From Morganella morganii (lineage in GTDB: Bacteria > Pseudomonadota > Gammaproteobacteria > Enterobacterales > Enterobacteriaceae): a stretch of 64,000 nt of DNA. Below the pieces are notes generated by a model. That model was not told the origin of the DNA, did not search any database, and saw only the letters and a program-made list of their open reading frames with translations. Positions 13,676 through 56,659 of this stretch are shown one piece after another. Position 1 is the stretch's first letter, and each line of letters opens with the position of its first letter. The stretch is from assembly GCF_019243775.1 (NCBI RefSeq), contig NZ_CP069157.1, positions 3,235,418 through 3,299,417 of the forward strand, written 5' to 3'. A program made the position numbers and the translations under genes.

Positions 13676-14333
13676 ATGCTAATGGAACCCTATAACCCGC
13701 CTGCCGCTCCCTGGCTGAACATCCTCTGGCAGGATGAAAGTATCATTGTGGTGAATAAACCAAGCGGACTGCTTTCCGTACCCGGCCGTGCGCCCGAACA
13801 TAAAGACAGTGTGATGACACGAATTCAGCGTGATTATCCTGCCGCAGAATCTGTTCATCGTCTGGATATGGCAACCAGCGGTATTATTGTGGTTGCGCTG
13901 ACCAAAGCCGCCGAGCGGGAGCTTAAACGGCAGTTCCGCGAACGGGAACCGAAAAAAAACCTATGTTGCCCGTATCTGGGGACGCCTGGAGCCGGAAACC
14001 GGCATGGTGGATTTACCGCTGATTTGTGACTGGCCGAACCGGCCGAAACAGAAAGTGTGTTTTGAAACCGGCAAACCGGCTCAGACAGGTTATGAAGTGC
14101 TGGAATATGAGGAAAATGCCACGCGGGTAAGACTGTTTCCGGTTACCGGGCGTTCGCATCAGTTGCGGGTGCATATGCTGGCACTGGGACACCCGATTCT
14201 GGGGGACCGTTTTTATGCACACGATGAAGCAAGAGCCGCAGCGCCCCGGCTGCAGCTTCATGCAGAGGCGCTGTCTGTCACACATCCGGCAAACGGCAAG
14301 CCGATGCATTTTACTTGTAAATCAGATTTTTAG
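13676..14333 (+). pseudogene. rluA: Dual-specificity rRNA/tRNA pseudouridine synthase, frameshifted
   Basis: RluA makes pseudouridine at 23S rRNA position 746 and tRNA position 32. The first frame (13676-14029) matches E. coli RluA from 'YNPP' through the catalytic loop HRLDMATSG to 'REREPKK', then turns to nonsense. A second frame (from about 13960 to 14333) continues with 'MVDLPLICDWPNRPKQK' and 'TGRSHQLRVHMLALGHPIL' to the normal C-terminus. The break is a run of eight A (13952-13959). With seven A the codons read Lys-Lys-Thr-Tyr-Val-Ala-Arg and the gene is whole at about 218 residues. All catalytic residues are upstream, but the fold would be incomplete. A sequencing error or a recent slippage event are both possible. 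Confidence 0.9.
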
Positions 14334-50836: not shown

Positions 50837-51661
50837 ATGAACAAACCTGCATTAGTTACCTTATCTGACGGACACTTAATGCCGCAACTGGGGCTGGGTG
50901 TCTGGAAAGCCGGGAACGACGTGGTCGGCTCTGCTGTGCAGACCGCACTCGAAACCGGTTACCGGCTGATTGATACTGCCGCGATTTATCAGAACGAGGA
51001 AGGTGTCGGTGAAGGACTGAAAGCGACCACCGTTCCCCGAGACGAGTTGTTTATCACCACCAAACTGTGGAACAGCGATCAGCAACATGCCGGTAAGGCG
51101 CTGGAAGCGAGCCTGAAAAAGTTACAGCTCGATTATGTGGATTTGTATCTGATCCACTGGCCCGCACCGGCAGAAGACCATTATGTCTCCGCCTGGGAGC
51201 AGTTGATTGAATTACAGAAATCCGGACTGACCCGCAGTATCGGTGTCTGTAATTTTGATATCGGCCATTTGCAGCGCATTATCCACAAAACCGGCGTGGC
51301 ACCGGTACTCAATCAGATAGAACTGCATCCTCTGCTGCAACAGCGCGAGCTTCAGGCCTGGAATGCGACCCATTCCATTCACACTGAATCCTGGAGTCCG
51401 CTGGCACAGGGCGGCGAAGGCGTTTTTGATACTGATATCATTCAGGCATTAGCGGCGAAATACCAGAAAACACCAGCACAGATAGTGATTCGCTGGCATC
51501 TGGATCGCGGGCTGATTGTGATACCGAAATCAGTCACCCCTTCGCGGATTCATGAAAACTTTGATGTCTTTGATTTCCGTCTGGAGAAAGAAGAACTCTC
51601 ACAGATTCAGTCTCTCGATTCAGGTACCCGCTTAGGGCCGGATCCAAAAGAATTTAATTAA
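50837..51661 (+). CDS. dkgA: 2,5-diketo-D-gluconate reductase A (aldo-keto reductase)
   Basis: Aldo-keto reductase that reduces 2,5-diketo-gluconate and methylglyoxal with NADPH. The 274 residues show the AKR signature 'GYRLIDTAAIYQNEEGVG' with catalytic Asp and Tyr, the lysine in 'FITTKLW', 'YLIHWP' and the coenzyme-binding 'VIPKSVTPSRIHENFDVF'. TTGGAGG precedes the ATG. Second gene of the yqhD-dkgA aldehyde detoxification pair. Confidence 0.95.
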   Translation: MNKPALVTLSDGHLMPQLGLGVWKAGNDVVGSAVQTALETGYRLIDTAAIYQNEEGVGEGLKATTVPRDELFITTKLWNSDQQHAGKALEASLKKLQLDYVDLYLIHWPAPAEDHYVSAWEQLIELQKSGLTRSIGVCNFDIGHLQRIIHKTGVAPVLNQIELHPLLQQRELQAWNATHSIHTESWSPLAQGGEGVFDTDIIQALAAKYQKTPAQIVIRWHLDRGLIVIPKSVTPSRIHENFDVFDFRLEKEELSQIQSLDSGTRLGPDPKEFN

Positions 51662-51921: not shown

Positions 51922-52053
51922 ATGAAACATGACCTTTCAGTCACCATAACACAGCATTACCATTCAAGGTTAAAAGCCATGTTGTACATCACATCGTTCG
52001 AACCGGTGTATGCAACACCAGTCTTCACAGCGATGTTCTCGTTGAACCGGTAA
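51922..52053 (+). CDS. Candidate 43-residue ORF antisense to the adhesin 3' end
   Basis: An ATG with an unusually strong ribosome-binding site (AGGAGGAG, 51911-51918) opens a 43-residue frame beginning 'MKHDLSVTITQHYHSRLKAM'. Most of it is antisense to the conserved anchor of the autotransporter, so the amino-acid sequence after residue 12 may be meaningless. It could be a remnant of a gene cut off when the adhesin region arrived, or chance. I do not recognise a family. Confidence 0.3.
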   Translation: MKHDLSVTITQHYHSRLKAMLYITSFEPVYATPVFTAMFSLNR

Positions 52054-53201
52054 CCGGTTCCCACTGCGACTGCCTGAGTGGACTGGTATCCGCCCATCGC
52101 CGCAGTGATATTCAGTTTACCGACACCGTACGGCTGGAACAGACCGTTCAGTGCGGCACTGGCCGCCAGACCGTTATCAAGGCGCTCGTTGGTTTCACGT
52201 AAATCATTTTCCAGTGAACGCAGATCCTGGCGGTTCTTCAGGATATCGAGGGTATTTTTATCAATTTTGGTCGCGTGTTTATCAATATCTCTTCTGTTAG
52301 CATTAGCCACATTGGTTGTCGTATTACTCTTTTTGCGAACATCTTTTAAATCTGTTGTCAGCTTGTCTGAACCGGCTTTCAGTTCAGAGATCATTTTTCC
52401 CTGCTGCTGAATTTCGTTACCCTGTGAAAAATTCACTTCATCTGTCAGTTCGATAGCTGATTCCAGATTATTAATTTCCTGCTCATTCTTCTTACTATCT
52501 TGTTTTAACTGATAAATTGCATTATCGGCAGGGATCGCTCGTTCAATCAGAGAATTGATATTATTTCTTATGTTTTTATTTTCCGAATGAAGTTCTTCGA
52601 GTTGATCATCCTGTTCTTTATTCACAGTCTGAACGGCTGAGATATCCGTATGCAGTTCACCCACAGATAAAATGACAGATTCACTCTGTATTTTGATACT
52701 GTCTGCATCCTGTTTTAACTGAGATATCTCATTGAATACCGGTGATATTGTCTCATTTATCTCATTGATTTTAACTTCAGCAGACAGGGCTGCCGCCCCC
52801 AGTTTCTCCAGCTTAGTATCCTGTTTTTCATTAGCATCCTGTATATTTTTCATGTCACTATTAAATTCATCAATAGTTTGAGATAATGACTGATTATAAA
52901 CAGGGGAATTACTCTGTATCTCCGTAACACTGTTCAGTGTATGATTAATTTTGTCATTTAAGTAATTATATGTTTGAATAACTTCTGAAATACCCGCACT
53001 GCGGTCATACTCATTTTTAATTTCAGATGTAATCAATGGCTGATAATTATTTTCTACAAAATATAATTTAGTACTGGTTTCCGGTACTAATACCGGAATC
53101 TCGTCTTCAGTAACTTTTTTATATTCAGATAAATCAACAAGTGTTCTTGCATAATAGTAGTTGCTGTTATCATCAGCGTTCGCATATGAAAAAGGCAGCA
53201 T
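51957..53201 (-). CDS. YadA-like trimeric autotransporter adhesin, signal peptide out of frame
   Basis: Surface adhesin of the type V(c) secretion class. The last ~75 residues are a YadA anchor ('LAASAALNGLFQPYGVGKLN', 'AVAVGTGYRFNENIAVKTGV', final aromatic in 'NLEW'). Before it is a long coiled-coil stalk with heptad-like repeats ('KEQDDQLEELHSENKNIRNN', 'DKHATKIDKNTLDILKNRQD'). YadA-type head repeats are not seen, so residues 10-80 may form a small unknown head. The readable ORF begins 'MLPFSYANADD', only the end of a signal peptide. With eight instead of nine A at 53221-53229 the frame starts at ATG 53232 as MKKNLISLLIMLPFSYANA, a normal signal. The gene is clearly more AT-rich than its neighbours, suggesting transfer. 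Confidence 0.85.
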   Translation of the reverse strand: MLPFSYANADDNSNYYYARTLVDLSEYKKVTEDEIPVLVPETSTKLYFVENNYQPLITSEIKNEYDRSAGISEVIQTYNYLNDKINHTLNSVTEIQSNSPVYNQSLSQTIDEFNSDMKNIQDANEKQDTKLEKLGAAALSAEVKINEINETISPVFNEISQLKQDADSIKIQSESVILSVGELHTDISAVQTVNKEQDDQLEELHSENKNIRNNINSLIERAIPADNAIYQLKQDSKKNEQEINNLESAIELTDEVNFSQGNEIQQQGKMISELKAGSDKLTTDLKDVRKKSNTTTNVANANRRDIDKHATKIDKNTLDILKNRQDLRSLENDLRETNERLDNGLAASAALNGLFQPYGVGKLNITAAMGGYQSTQAVAVGTGYRFNENIAVKTGVAYTGSNDVMYNMAFNLEW

Positions 53202-53220
53202 GATAAGCAGGGAAATTAAA

Positions 53221-53229
53221 TTTTTTTTT
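53221..53229 (-). repeat. Poly-A (nine) tract at the adhesin start
   Basis: Nine T on the plus strand, read as nine A directly after the ATG at 53232. In the present length the ATG at 53232 and the one at 53236 both lead to early stops. Eight A would join ATG 53232 to the adhesin frame; ten A would join ATG 53236. This is the layout of a translational slipped-strand switch. Confidence 0.7.
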
Positions 53230-53388
53230 CATTCATTAACTCTCAATATAGATAAAACAGGATTTGAAAAAATATACCTGCATTACCGCAGAGAAAGAAT
53301 AAACAAAACATAAACACAAAAAAAAGCCAAAAAATATAGTTAGGTAATTATTTTAACAGAAGAGAATCGAATCGTTTTTCCGGAGAAA

Positions 53389-53417
53389 TAAAAAATCCGC
53401 CGCAGCGGATTTTTTAT
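53389..53417 (-). terminator. carAB terminator
   Basis: AAAAAATCCGC and GCGGATTTTTT pair around CGCA, 14 bases past the carB stop. A and T runs on both sides make it work in both directions. Confidence 0.85.
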
Positions 53418-53431
53418 TTTAACAAACGTGA

Positions 53432-56400
53432 TTATTTATCTTTAATCAGGCTGTGCATTTCCTGTACTGAAATCACTCTCTCTGTCGGATCCATATTCAG
53501 AGACAGTGTGGTGGCAAAGCCGCCGTTCATGGTGGTGTCGTAATGCACTTTATATTGCAGGGCGCTGCGGCGGATCACTTTGGAATCCTCAATCGCCTGA
53601 CGACCGGCGGTGGTATTCACAATGTAATCGTATTCGCCGTTTTTAATTCTGTCCTGAATGTGAGGGCGACCTTCGTGCACCTTATTCACCAGGCGCGGGT
53701 TAATACCCGCCTCACCCAGCACAATCGCAGTACCGTGTGTCGCATCCAGCTCAAAACCCTGTTTCAGCAGTTTTGCCGCCAGATCCACCACCCGCGCTTT
53801 ATCACCTTCGCGGACAGAGAGCAGCGCACGGCCTTTCTTCTTCAGTGAGGAAGAGCTGCCGAGCATGGCTTTGGCAAAGGCTTCCGCAAAGGTGCGTCCC
53901 ACGCCCATCACTTCCCCGGTAGAGCGCATTTCCGGCCCTAAAATCGGGTCAACGCCCGGGAATTTGTTGAATGGCAGCACCACTTCTTTCACCGAGTAGT
54001 ACGGCGGGATGACTTCTTTTGTCACACCCTGCTGCGTCAGTGTCTGACCGGCCATCACGCGCGCTGCGACTTTCGCCAGCGGCACCCCGGTGGCTTTGGA
54101 GACAAACGGCACCGTACGCGCCGCACGCGGGTTAACTTCAATCAGATACACTTCGTTGTCTTTGACCGCAAACTGGGTGTTCATCAGACCGCGCACACGC
54201 AGTTCCATCGCCAGTTTTCTCACCTGGTCGCGCATCACATCCTGGATTTCCTGACTCAGCGTGTAAGCCGGTAACGAGCAGGCAGAATCCCCGGAGTGAA
54301 CCCCCGCCTGTTCGATGTGCTCCATAATGCCGCCAATCAGCACCTGTTCGCCGTCGCAGATAGCATCGACATCCACCTCAATCGCATCGTCGAGGAAGCG
54401 GTCAAGCAGTACCGGCGCGTCATTGGAGACACTGACTGCATTCTGGAAGTAACGGCGCAGGTCGGTTTCGTCGCAGACGATTTCCATCGCGCGACCGCCC
54501 AGCACATAAGAAGGACGCACCACCAGCGGATAACCAATTTCTTTTGCCCGCTCAACCGCCTGCTCAATATTAGAGACGGTGGCGTTTGCCGGTTGTTTCA
54601 GGCCGAGGCGGACGACCGCCTGCTGGAAACGCTCGCGGTCTTCCGCGCGGTCAATCGCATCCGGGCTGGTACCGATAACCGGCACACCGGCCGCTTCCAG
54701 GCTGCGCGCCAGTTTCAGCGGAGTCTGGCCGCCGTACTGAACAATCACACCCGCCGGTTTTTCGACACGCACGATTTCCAGCACATCTTCCAGCGTCACC
54801 GGCTCGAAATAGAGGCGGTCAGAAGTGTCGTAGTCAGTGGAAACCGTTTCCGGGTTGCAGTTGACCATGATGGTTTCGTAGCCGTCTTCACGCAGCGCCA
54901 TCGCCGCGTGTACGCAGCAGTAGTCAAACTCAATGCCCTGGCCGATACGGTTCGGCCCGCCGCCGAGTACCATAATTTTCGGTTTGTCGTTGTTCGGCTG
55001 CGCTTCACACTCTTCTTCATAGGTGGAGTAGAGATAGGCGGTGTCAGTGGCAAATTCCGCCGCGCAGGTATCCACACGCTTATAAACCGGCCACAGCTGA
55101 TAGCTGTCACGCAGTTTGCGGATTTCAGCTTCCGCCACACCGACCAGTTTTGCCAGCCGCGCATCCGCAAAACCTTTGCGTTTCAGGTGACGCAGGAATT
55201 CGGGGGTCAGGCCGTTAATCCCGACTTCTGCCACCTGCTCTTCCAGACGCACCAGCTCTTCAATCTGTACCAGGAACCAGCGGTCAACGTTGGTCAGGTT
55301 AAATACGCCGTCAACTGACAGTCCGGCGCGGAATGCGTCCGCGATATACCAGATCCGCTCGCCGCCCGCTTCTTTCAGCTCACGGCGGATGCGGGTCAGT
55401 GCATCCGGGTCGTCCAGGTTCACTTTCGGATCAAAACCGGTCGCGCCCACTTCGAGGCCGCGCAGCGCTTTTTGCAGGGATTCCTGCTGAGTGCGGCCGA
55501 TAGCCATCACTTCACCGACGGATTTCATCTGTGTGGTCAGACGGTCATTGGTGCCGGCAAATTTTTCAAAGTTAAAGCGCGGGATTTTTGTCACAACATA
55601 GTCGATGGACGGCTCAAAGGAGGCCGGTGTCAGGCCGCCGGTGATGTCGTTTGACAGTTCATCCAGCGTGTAGCCGACTGCCAGTTTGGCCGCGATTTTG
55701 GCAATCGGGAAGCCGGTCGCTTTGGAGGCCAGCGCGGAGGAGCGCGATACACGCGGGTTCATCTCGATAACAATCAGACGACCGGTTTTCGGGTTCACCG
55801 AGAACTGCACGTTGGAGCCGCCGGTTTCCACGCCGATTTCACGCAGCACCGCCATCGAGGCGTTACGCATGATTTGGTATTCTTTGTCGGTCAGGGTCTG
55901 TGCAGGGGCAACAGTGATAGAGTCACCGGTGTGGATCCCCATCGCGTCGAAGTTTTCGATGGAGCAGACAATGATGCAGTTATCATTTTTGTCCCGCACC
56001 ACTTCCATTTCATACTCTTTCCAGCCAATCAGTGATTCATCAATCAGCAGTTCGTTGGTCGGGGAGAGATCCAGGCCGCGGGTACAGATTTCCTCGAATT
56101 CTTCACGGTTATACGCAATACCGCCGCCGGTGCCGCCCATGGTGAATGACGGGCGGATAATGCACGGGAAACCGACATCATCGGCGACCGCAAACGCTTC
56201 TTCCATGGTGTGTGCGATACCGGAACGCGCTGTATCCAGACCGATTTTTTTCATCGCGATATCGAAACGGCGGCGATCTTCGGCTTTATCAATCGCATCT
56301 GCTGTCGCGCCAATCATTTCGACGCCGAACTCTGCCAGCACGCCGTGACGTTCCAGATCCAGCGCACAGTTCAGCGCGGTTTGTCCGCCCATGGTCGGCA

Positions 56401-56659
56401 GAACGGCATCCGGGCGCTCTTTTTCGATGATTTTGCGCACCACTTCCCAGTGAATCGGCTCGATGTAAGTCGCATCCGCCATTTCCGGGTCGGTCATAAT
56501 GGTTGCCGGGTTCGAGTTAACGAGGATAACGCGGTAGCCCTCTTCGCGCAGGGCTTTACACGCCTGGGCGCCGGAGTAGTCAAATTCACAGGCCTGGCCG
56601 ATAACAATCGGACCGGCGCCTAAAATCAGGATGCTGCTGATATCTGTACGTTTTGCCAT
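53432..56659 (-). CDS. carB: Carbamoyl-phosphate synthase large subunit
   Basis: Makes carbamoyl phosphate, shared by arginine and pyrimidine synthesis, from bicarbonate, ATP and ammonia channelled from CarA. The 1075 residues hold two homologous ATP-grasp halves: '[20 protein letters not shown]' near the start and '[20 protein letters not shown]' in the second half, each with the matching '[11 protein letters not shown]' and '[20 protein letters not shown]' loops. The C-terminal allosteric domain (about 935-1075), which binds UMP and ornithine in E. coli, ends the protein. Length agrees with E. coli (1073). It is 14 bases after carA. Confidence 0.97.

Follow-up and report, generated by a model that had tools for sequence, protein, structure and literature searches.

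A poly-A run at the start of a trimeric autotransporter adhesin gene is out of frame in one Morganella morganii genome record

Results

A frame conflict at the start of the adhesin gene

The window analysed here, a stretch of 64,000 nucleotides of Morganella morganii (contig NZ_CP069157.1, positions 3,235,418 to 3,299,417 of the forward strand) within a single-contig genome of 3.81 Mb labelled G000, carries on its minus strand an adhesin open reading frame (ORF) and a likely start codon that are separated by a run of nine As (nine Ts on the plus strand) and do not share a reading frame (Table 1). The C-terminus of the predicted protein matches the YadA_anchor family PF03895 (residues 355-414, E 1.6e-14, over the family cut-off) and the best solved chain is 2lme, the adhesin YadA (residues 322-414, E 3e-34), identifying the product as a predicted YadA-type trimeric autotransporter adhesin, as the initial annotation had proposed. 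The same annotation placed the adhesin start off frame at the nine-A run, and direct reading of the sequence agrees: translation from the ATG at 53232 ends after 19 codons, while that from an overlapping upstream ATG (53236-53234) reaches a stop after six.

The adhesin frame itself offers no substitute start, which had likewise been noted. It is closed by a TGA directly upstream, and between this TGA (at 53231) and the first in-frame ATG (at 53201) lie only the codons AAA, AAA, AAT, TTA, ATT, TCC, CTG, CTT and ATC, so that an alternative in-frame start was rejected; initiation at 53201 leaves no basic N-region, and as read from the sequence of this record the passenger lacks an in-frame signal peptide. 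A -1 ribosomal frameshift on the A-run was rejected as well, since from the ATG at 53232 it would not lead into the adhesin frame. All 414 adhesin codons are free of internal stops. The frame conflict at the A-run is thus confirmed in this record.

Orthologues are open from the start codon

Comparison was made across six Morganella genomes, one per species and including that of the window, the five relatives being M. morganii Mm1 (G003), FAM24679 and H1r and M. psychrotolerans DI-3 and DSM 17886; G004 among them is a complete genome. A scan of viral contigs for same-species copies with one 33-base query gave 0 matches. The adhesin gene lies between the same two neighbours in all six, and in all six a run of 7-9 As falls within 17 bases of its start. 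The start opens 305-424 codons in each of the five relatives versus 19 in the window genome. An alignment of orthologous starts, suggested at the outset as a check, upholds the run as a kept feature (6 of 6 genomes) with open frames in 5 of 5 relatives, and does not uphold the nested arrangement of two ATG codons, the upstream one being absent, as aligned, from all five.

Mm1 carries the nearest orthologue, 79% identical across 414 residues. With no upstream ATG and an A-run as long as that of the window, this copy stays open for 424 codons. Because it is open at an equal run length, run length alone would not determine the adhesin frame, and the proposal that tract length sets an ON state finds no support in this pair. 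The DSM 17886 orthologue (L040) opens 305 codons from its start and is then split inside the gene, into frames of 322 and 133 amino acids, at an A-run distinct from the one at the start.

The coding sequence is constrained. The ratio of non-synonymous to synonymous substitution rates (dN/dS) against Mm1 is 0.155 (NG86, 414 codons), compared with 0.016 to 0.136 for 12 neighbour genes, and by part of the gene it is 0.122, 0.305 and 0.030, the last being the anchor part. These values suggest that the coding sequence was kept until recently or is still kept, the ratio being averaged across the entire divergence from Mm1 (dS 0.71), so that a recent loss would go unseen. The dS itself exceeds that of the 12 neighbours (0.16 to 0.43), perhaps reflecting recombination or rapid change at the locus.

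Housekeeping genes are split at homopolymer runs in the same genome

The frame lesion is not peculiar to the adhesin: housekeeping genes of the same genome are also hit at runs. Within the window rluA is split at an A8 run into two ORFs that both match the RluA model NF007543; the gene is unbroken in G003 and G004, and the Mm1 run has a length of seven. Outside it argA is split at an A8 run (L140 4144-5503, G000 near 3219799), both parts matching PRK05279, amino-acid N-acetyltransferase. Frame-breaking runs are accordingly not confined to genes of contingency type.

Over 364 kb G000 was scanned for splits against G003 and G004, and only those seen against both other genomes were counted. Four of the 10 listed for G000 were kept (a ferredoxin-like gene at C8, argA and rluA at A8, and a gene broken at G8 near its start), none of 6 for G003 and two of 6 for G004, many of the others looking like wrongly extended starts. 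Of 469 G004 proteins compared over 764 kb, 12 look split in G000: four are broken inside the gene at runs (C8, A8, A8 and T9, the last in a gene for an agcS-type carrier), two have a run of 8 beside a break near the start, and six show no run. In the reverse direction 10 of 471 proteins look split in G004, comprising two breaks at runs inside the gene (C7; A6/A8), one at T7 near the start, the rluA event viewed from its fragment, and six without a run.

Long runs tend to be longer in this genome

Homopolymer lengths were compared between the same genomes. In the three-way comparison over 364 kb, among 48 matchable runs with a common length of 7 or 8, G000 alone differs nine times and is always the longer (two-sided sign test, 0.004). 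Against G004 over 764 kb, G000 is longer in 16 cases and shorter in 5 where the shorter length is at least 7 (p 0.027), versus 22 longer and 26 shorter where it is 4 to 6 (p 0.67), in a comparison that scanned only G000 for runs of 4 or more and left out 11 run pairs whose shorter run was 3. An exact-flank test of 20 runs of length 7 or more gave 3 longer in G000 and none shorter. At a shorter length of 7, 4 of 41 coding runs are longer in G000 compared with 7 of 42 non-coding ones, so that coding runs are not clearly spared. The bias in run length points to miscounting or to very recent slips.

Start-proximal A-runs are common in the genus

The nine-A run is not by itself exceptional, the single A9 of the window comparing with a mean of 0.90 in shuffles. 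The six genomes together contain 36 copies of ATG plus nine As versus 9 of the reversed pattern, in line with a 5' excess of poly-A runs that is general in prokaryotes (PMC2831843). A census of starts covered all 36 sites where ATG precedes at least nine As (ten in one case) and 40 of the 130 with ATG and eight As, namely 13 of 13 in G000, 18 of 18 in G004 and 9 of 18 in G001, the other three genomes being left out. Of the nine-A starts 8 are in frame, 6 off frame, 1 internal and 21 without a long frame; the corresponding figures for the eight-A starts are 12, 6, 4 and 18. The share of off-frame starts thus does not clearly rise from eight As (6 of the 40 sites examined) to nine (6 of 36), and four of the 12 off-frame rows (L055, L081, L088, L101) look like non-genes.

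Genes other than the adhesin have off-frame starts too. In G000 they are a DUF7424 lipoprotein-like gene (L043) and an HlyD-type gene (L077, assigned from the relatives' copies), which is off frame at its start run in both G000 and G005 and open in 4 of 5 relatives. In G001 they are phoC (L067), a fimbrial gene (L109) and a presumably lipoprotein-like one (L115), and in G005 a filamentous-haemagglutinin-type gene (L057) and L065, which we take to be transporter-like; its G001 counterpart (L112) is in frame. An enterochelin-esterase-like gene of G000 (L144 17623-19197, near 3378608) has a GTG start that is out of frame, as judged from ORF bounds, and is followed by an A8 run that is shorter in G003 and G004. 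Such off-frame starts recur in the genus, whether through true slippage or through noise in the assemblies.

Separately, the phoC-type acid phosphatase gene (L067, L058; family assigned from the G004 copy) has its start off frame at a nine-A run in both G001 and G005 and is broken a second time in G005.

Sequences around the adhesin gene

The adhesin gene is flanked by genes for a carbamoyl-phosphate synthase and an aldo/keto reductase, which we take to be carB and dkgA. Upstream of its start a T-run block is alike in all six genomes, the run being 8 in five of them and 9 in DSM 17886. This block is a possible promoter region or regulator site; a sigma-70 scan returned no promoter-like site on the minus strand. 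The inverted repeat between the adhesin gene and carB is probably the carB terminator, judging from its sequence and alignment, and is not among the sites listed by a terminator scan.

Table 1. Coordinates of the adhesin locus and of the split rluA gene in the window
Feature	Position	Strand	Basis or remark
Nine-A run	53221..53229	-	Between likely start codon and adhesin frame; direct sequence reading
Adhesin ORF, trimeric autotransporter type	51957..53201	-	414 amino acids, first in-frame ATG to stop
YadA-like membrane anchor, residues 355-414	51960..52139	-	PF03895 and 2lme matches
ATG aligned with start codon of open Mm1 orthologue	53230..53232	-	Only 19 codons open here
Upstream overlapping ATG	53234..53236	-	Not seen in five relatives, as aligned
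TGA closing adhesin frame upstream	53229..53231	-	Frame reading
GAGAG, putative weak ribosome-binding-like site	53240..53244	-	Identical in Mm1, by alignment
Upstream block with T-run (8 here) and GTTTATT	53298..53325	-	Alike in all six Morganella genomes, by alignment; candidate regulatory region
Inverted repeat flanked by A and T runs	53390..53419	.	Between carB and adhesin gene; sequence and alignment
Carbamoyl-phosphate-synthase gene	53432-56659	-	Neighbour of adhesin gene
Aldo/keto-reductase gene	50837-51661	+	Neighbour of adhesin gene
rluA, split into two ORFs	13676-14029 and 14004-14333		A8 run at 13952-13959

Discussion

An ordinary run with a misfitting length

We regard it as likely that the locus carries an ordinary start-proximal A-run whose printed length misfits the adhesin frame in one record, and not a dedicated switch. 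The A-run, like those of the relatives, encodes lysines at the beginning of the presumed signal peptide, and its length as printed in this record disagrees with the adhesin frame downstream. The frame conflict, the open orthologues, the constraint on the coding sequence and the similar lesions in unrelated genes are observed; whether the slip arose on the sequencer or in the DNA is inferred. The mechanism to which we commit, tentatively, is a homopolymer miscount in the assembly, an alternative that the initial annotation was right to name. It is favoured by the tendency of G000 runs to exceed those of the relatives at lengths of seven or more, and by the comparable conflicts that break housekeeping genes. 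A close second within the same explanation, and a reasonable possibility, is that replication truly slipped in this strain not long ago, in which case the gene would be silenced or weakly expressed. A hypermutator background was considered for the strain and rejected, the mutS and mutL models matching nearly full length without inner stops in all six genomes, a result with which subtle defects would be compatible.

Several observations weigh against this explanation. Firstly, for two coding runs it is G004, not G000, that has the longer form. Secondly, nine-A positions (overlaps counted) number 145 in G000 and 132 in G004 versus 37 in Mm1, in genomes of similar size; the poverty of Mm1 in long runs may be an assembly effect, its own long runs being undercounted, and this weakens the nine-to-none count of the three-way comparison. 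Thirdly, the excess of split genes in G000 over G004 is modest. Finally, two relatives also have starts off frame at such runs, so that real slips may occur in the genus.

Alternatives

If the printed length is real, transcription across the nine-A run could still yield some full-length product. In the corresponding reading the DNA is truly off frame, RNA polymerase slips on the run and some transcripts read the adhesin frame, an account that overlaps the real-slip half of the preferred explanation. In sequence the locus resembles the 'pseudo-pseudogenes' (PMC1088944): an otherwise intact frame is interrupted at a nine-A run, and the homologues read through in a single frame. This reading requires the printed length to be real, and the open Mm1 copy, having the same run, would lose some of its product by the same route; we consider it unlikely.

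A contingency locus, with reversible replication slippage of the A-run switching the adhesin between on and off within a population, would account for the position at the start codon, the slippage-prone length, the surface location of the protein, the intact and constrained coding sequence and the keeping of the run near the start in every genome compared. Precedents are available in inlA, swrA, vaa and p78, 5' poly-A frame slips being established for the first two (PMC2831843). Like the adhesin, Listeria inlA is a surface-protein gene with a start-proximal A-run whose off-frame form encodes a very short peptide, but isolate variants and slip frequencies were measured for inlA (PMC2831843), and among the Morganella orthologues length alone fails to account for the frame. 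The 5' run of 8 or 9 As in Bacillus subtilis swrA, summarised in the same paper, slips both ways and is similar in kind; swrA, however, is no adhesin gene, and its switching was measured. Against a contingency locus, the argA and rluA splits at A-runs are needed by no contingency model, the Mm1 copy is open at an equal run length, all five relatives are open from the start, and mutS and mutL are open in all six genomes. Such a switch is unsupported by the present evidence and in our judgement distinctly improbable, and the kind of observation made here is ordinary.

The wider proposal that start-proximal A-runs are genus-wide contingency switches for exported Morganella proteins (this adhesin, the PhoC acid phosphatase and the filamentous-haemagglutinin-type, fimbrial and lipoprotein-like proteins) is in our view quite doubtful; a literature search covering listed matches and passages of one paper found no report of such switches for Morganella.

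Long-standing decay of trimeric autotransporters in the lineage is suggested by a second autotransporter of G000 (L041 5669-6040, G000 2081755-2082036), which is a 123-amino-acid anchor remnant where the like frames have 451 amino acids in G004 and 427 in G001, and by the internal split of the DSM 17886 orthologue. The dN/dS of 0.155, the anchor value of 0.030 and the absence of a stop in 414 codons are unlike an old pseudogene, which was rejected on the first of these, and make decay very improbable. Least credible is a design of two nested start codons, each ON at its own tract length: both ATGs are present here, yet the upstream one is missing, as aligned, from five relatives and could be created by one substitution, so that we virtually dismiss it.

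Significance for Morganella adhesins

The Moraxella catarrhalis genes uspA1, uspA2 and mid/hag encode trimeric autotransporters. They are surface adhesins under simple-repeat control, but transcript level is altered by a G-run upstream of the ORF in uspA1 and by AGAT repeats in uspA2, and mid/hag has a G-run (PMC7302503), in contrast to an A-run in the coding start in Morganella. Loss of a trimeric autotransporter adhesin by frameshift has a parallel in Bartonella henselae badA (2 of 8 strains of that study), although in badA the shifts fall at 584 and 5,266 bp within the gene, and the protein was verified to be lost (PMC8859334). For M. morganii KT two putative trimeric-autotransporter genes are listed in PMC3521468, and the term 'phase variation' is absent from the available part of that paper. 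Among the literature matches listed, no title or abstract names Morganella morganii or phase variation, and nothing was found that joins trimeric autotransporter, phase variation and poly-A.

The argA split, if real, would be a lesion in arginine synthesis. Were the adhesin run a true switch, an enterobacterial trimeric adhesin would join the repeat-controlled adhesins, the repeat being a poly-A stretch at the 5' end. More probably the finding is a caution about single assemblies than a new switch: with nine-A counts of 145, 132 and 37 in three genomes, tract lengths from single Morganella assemblies should not be taken as phase states.
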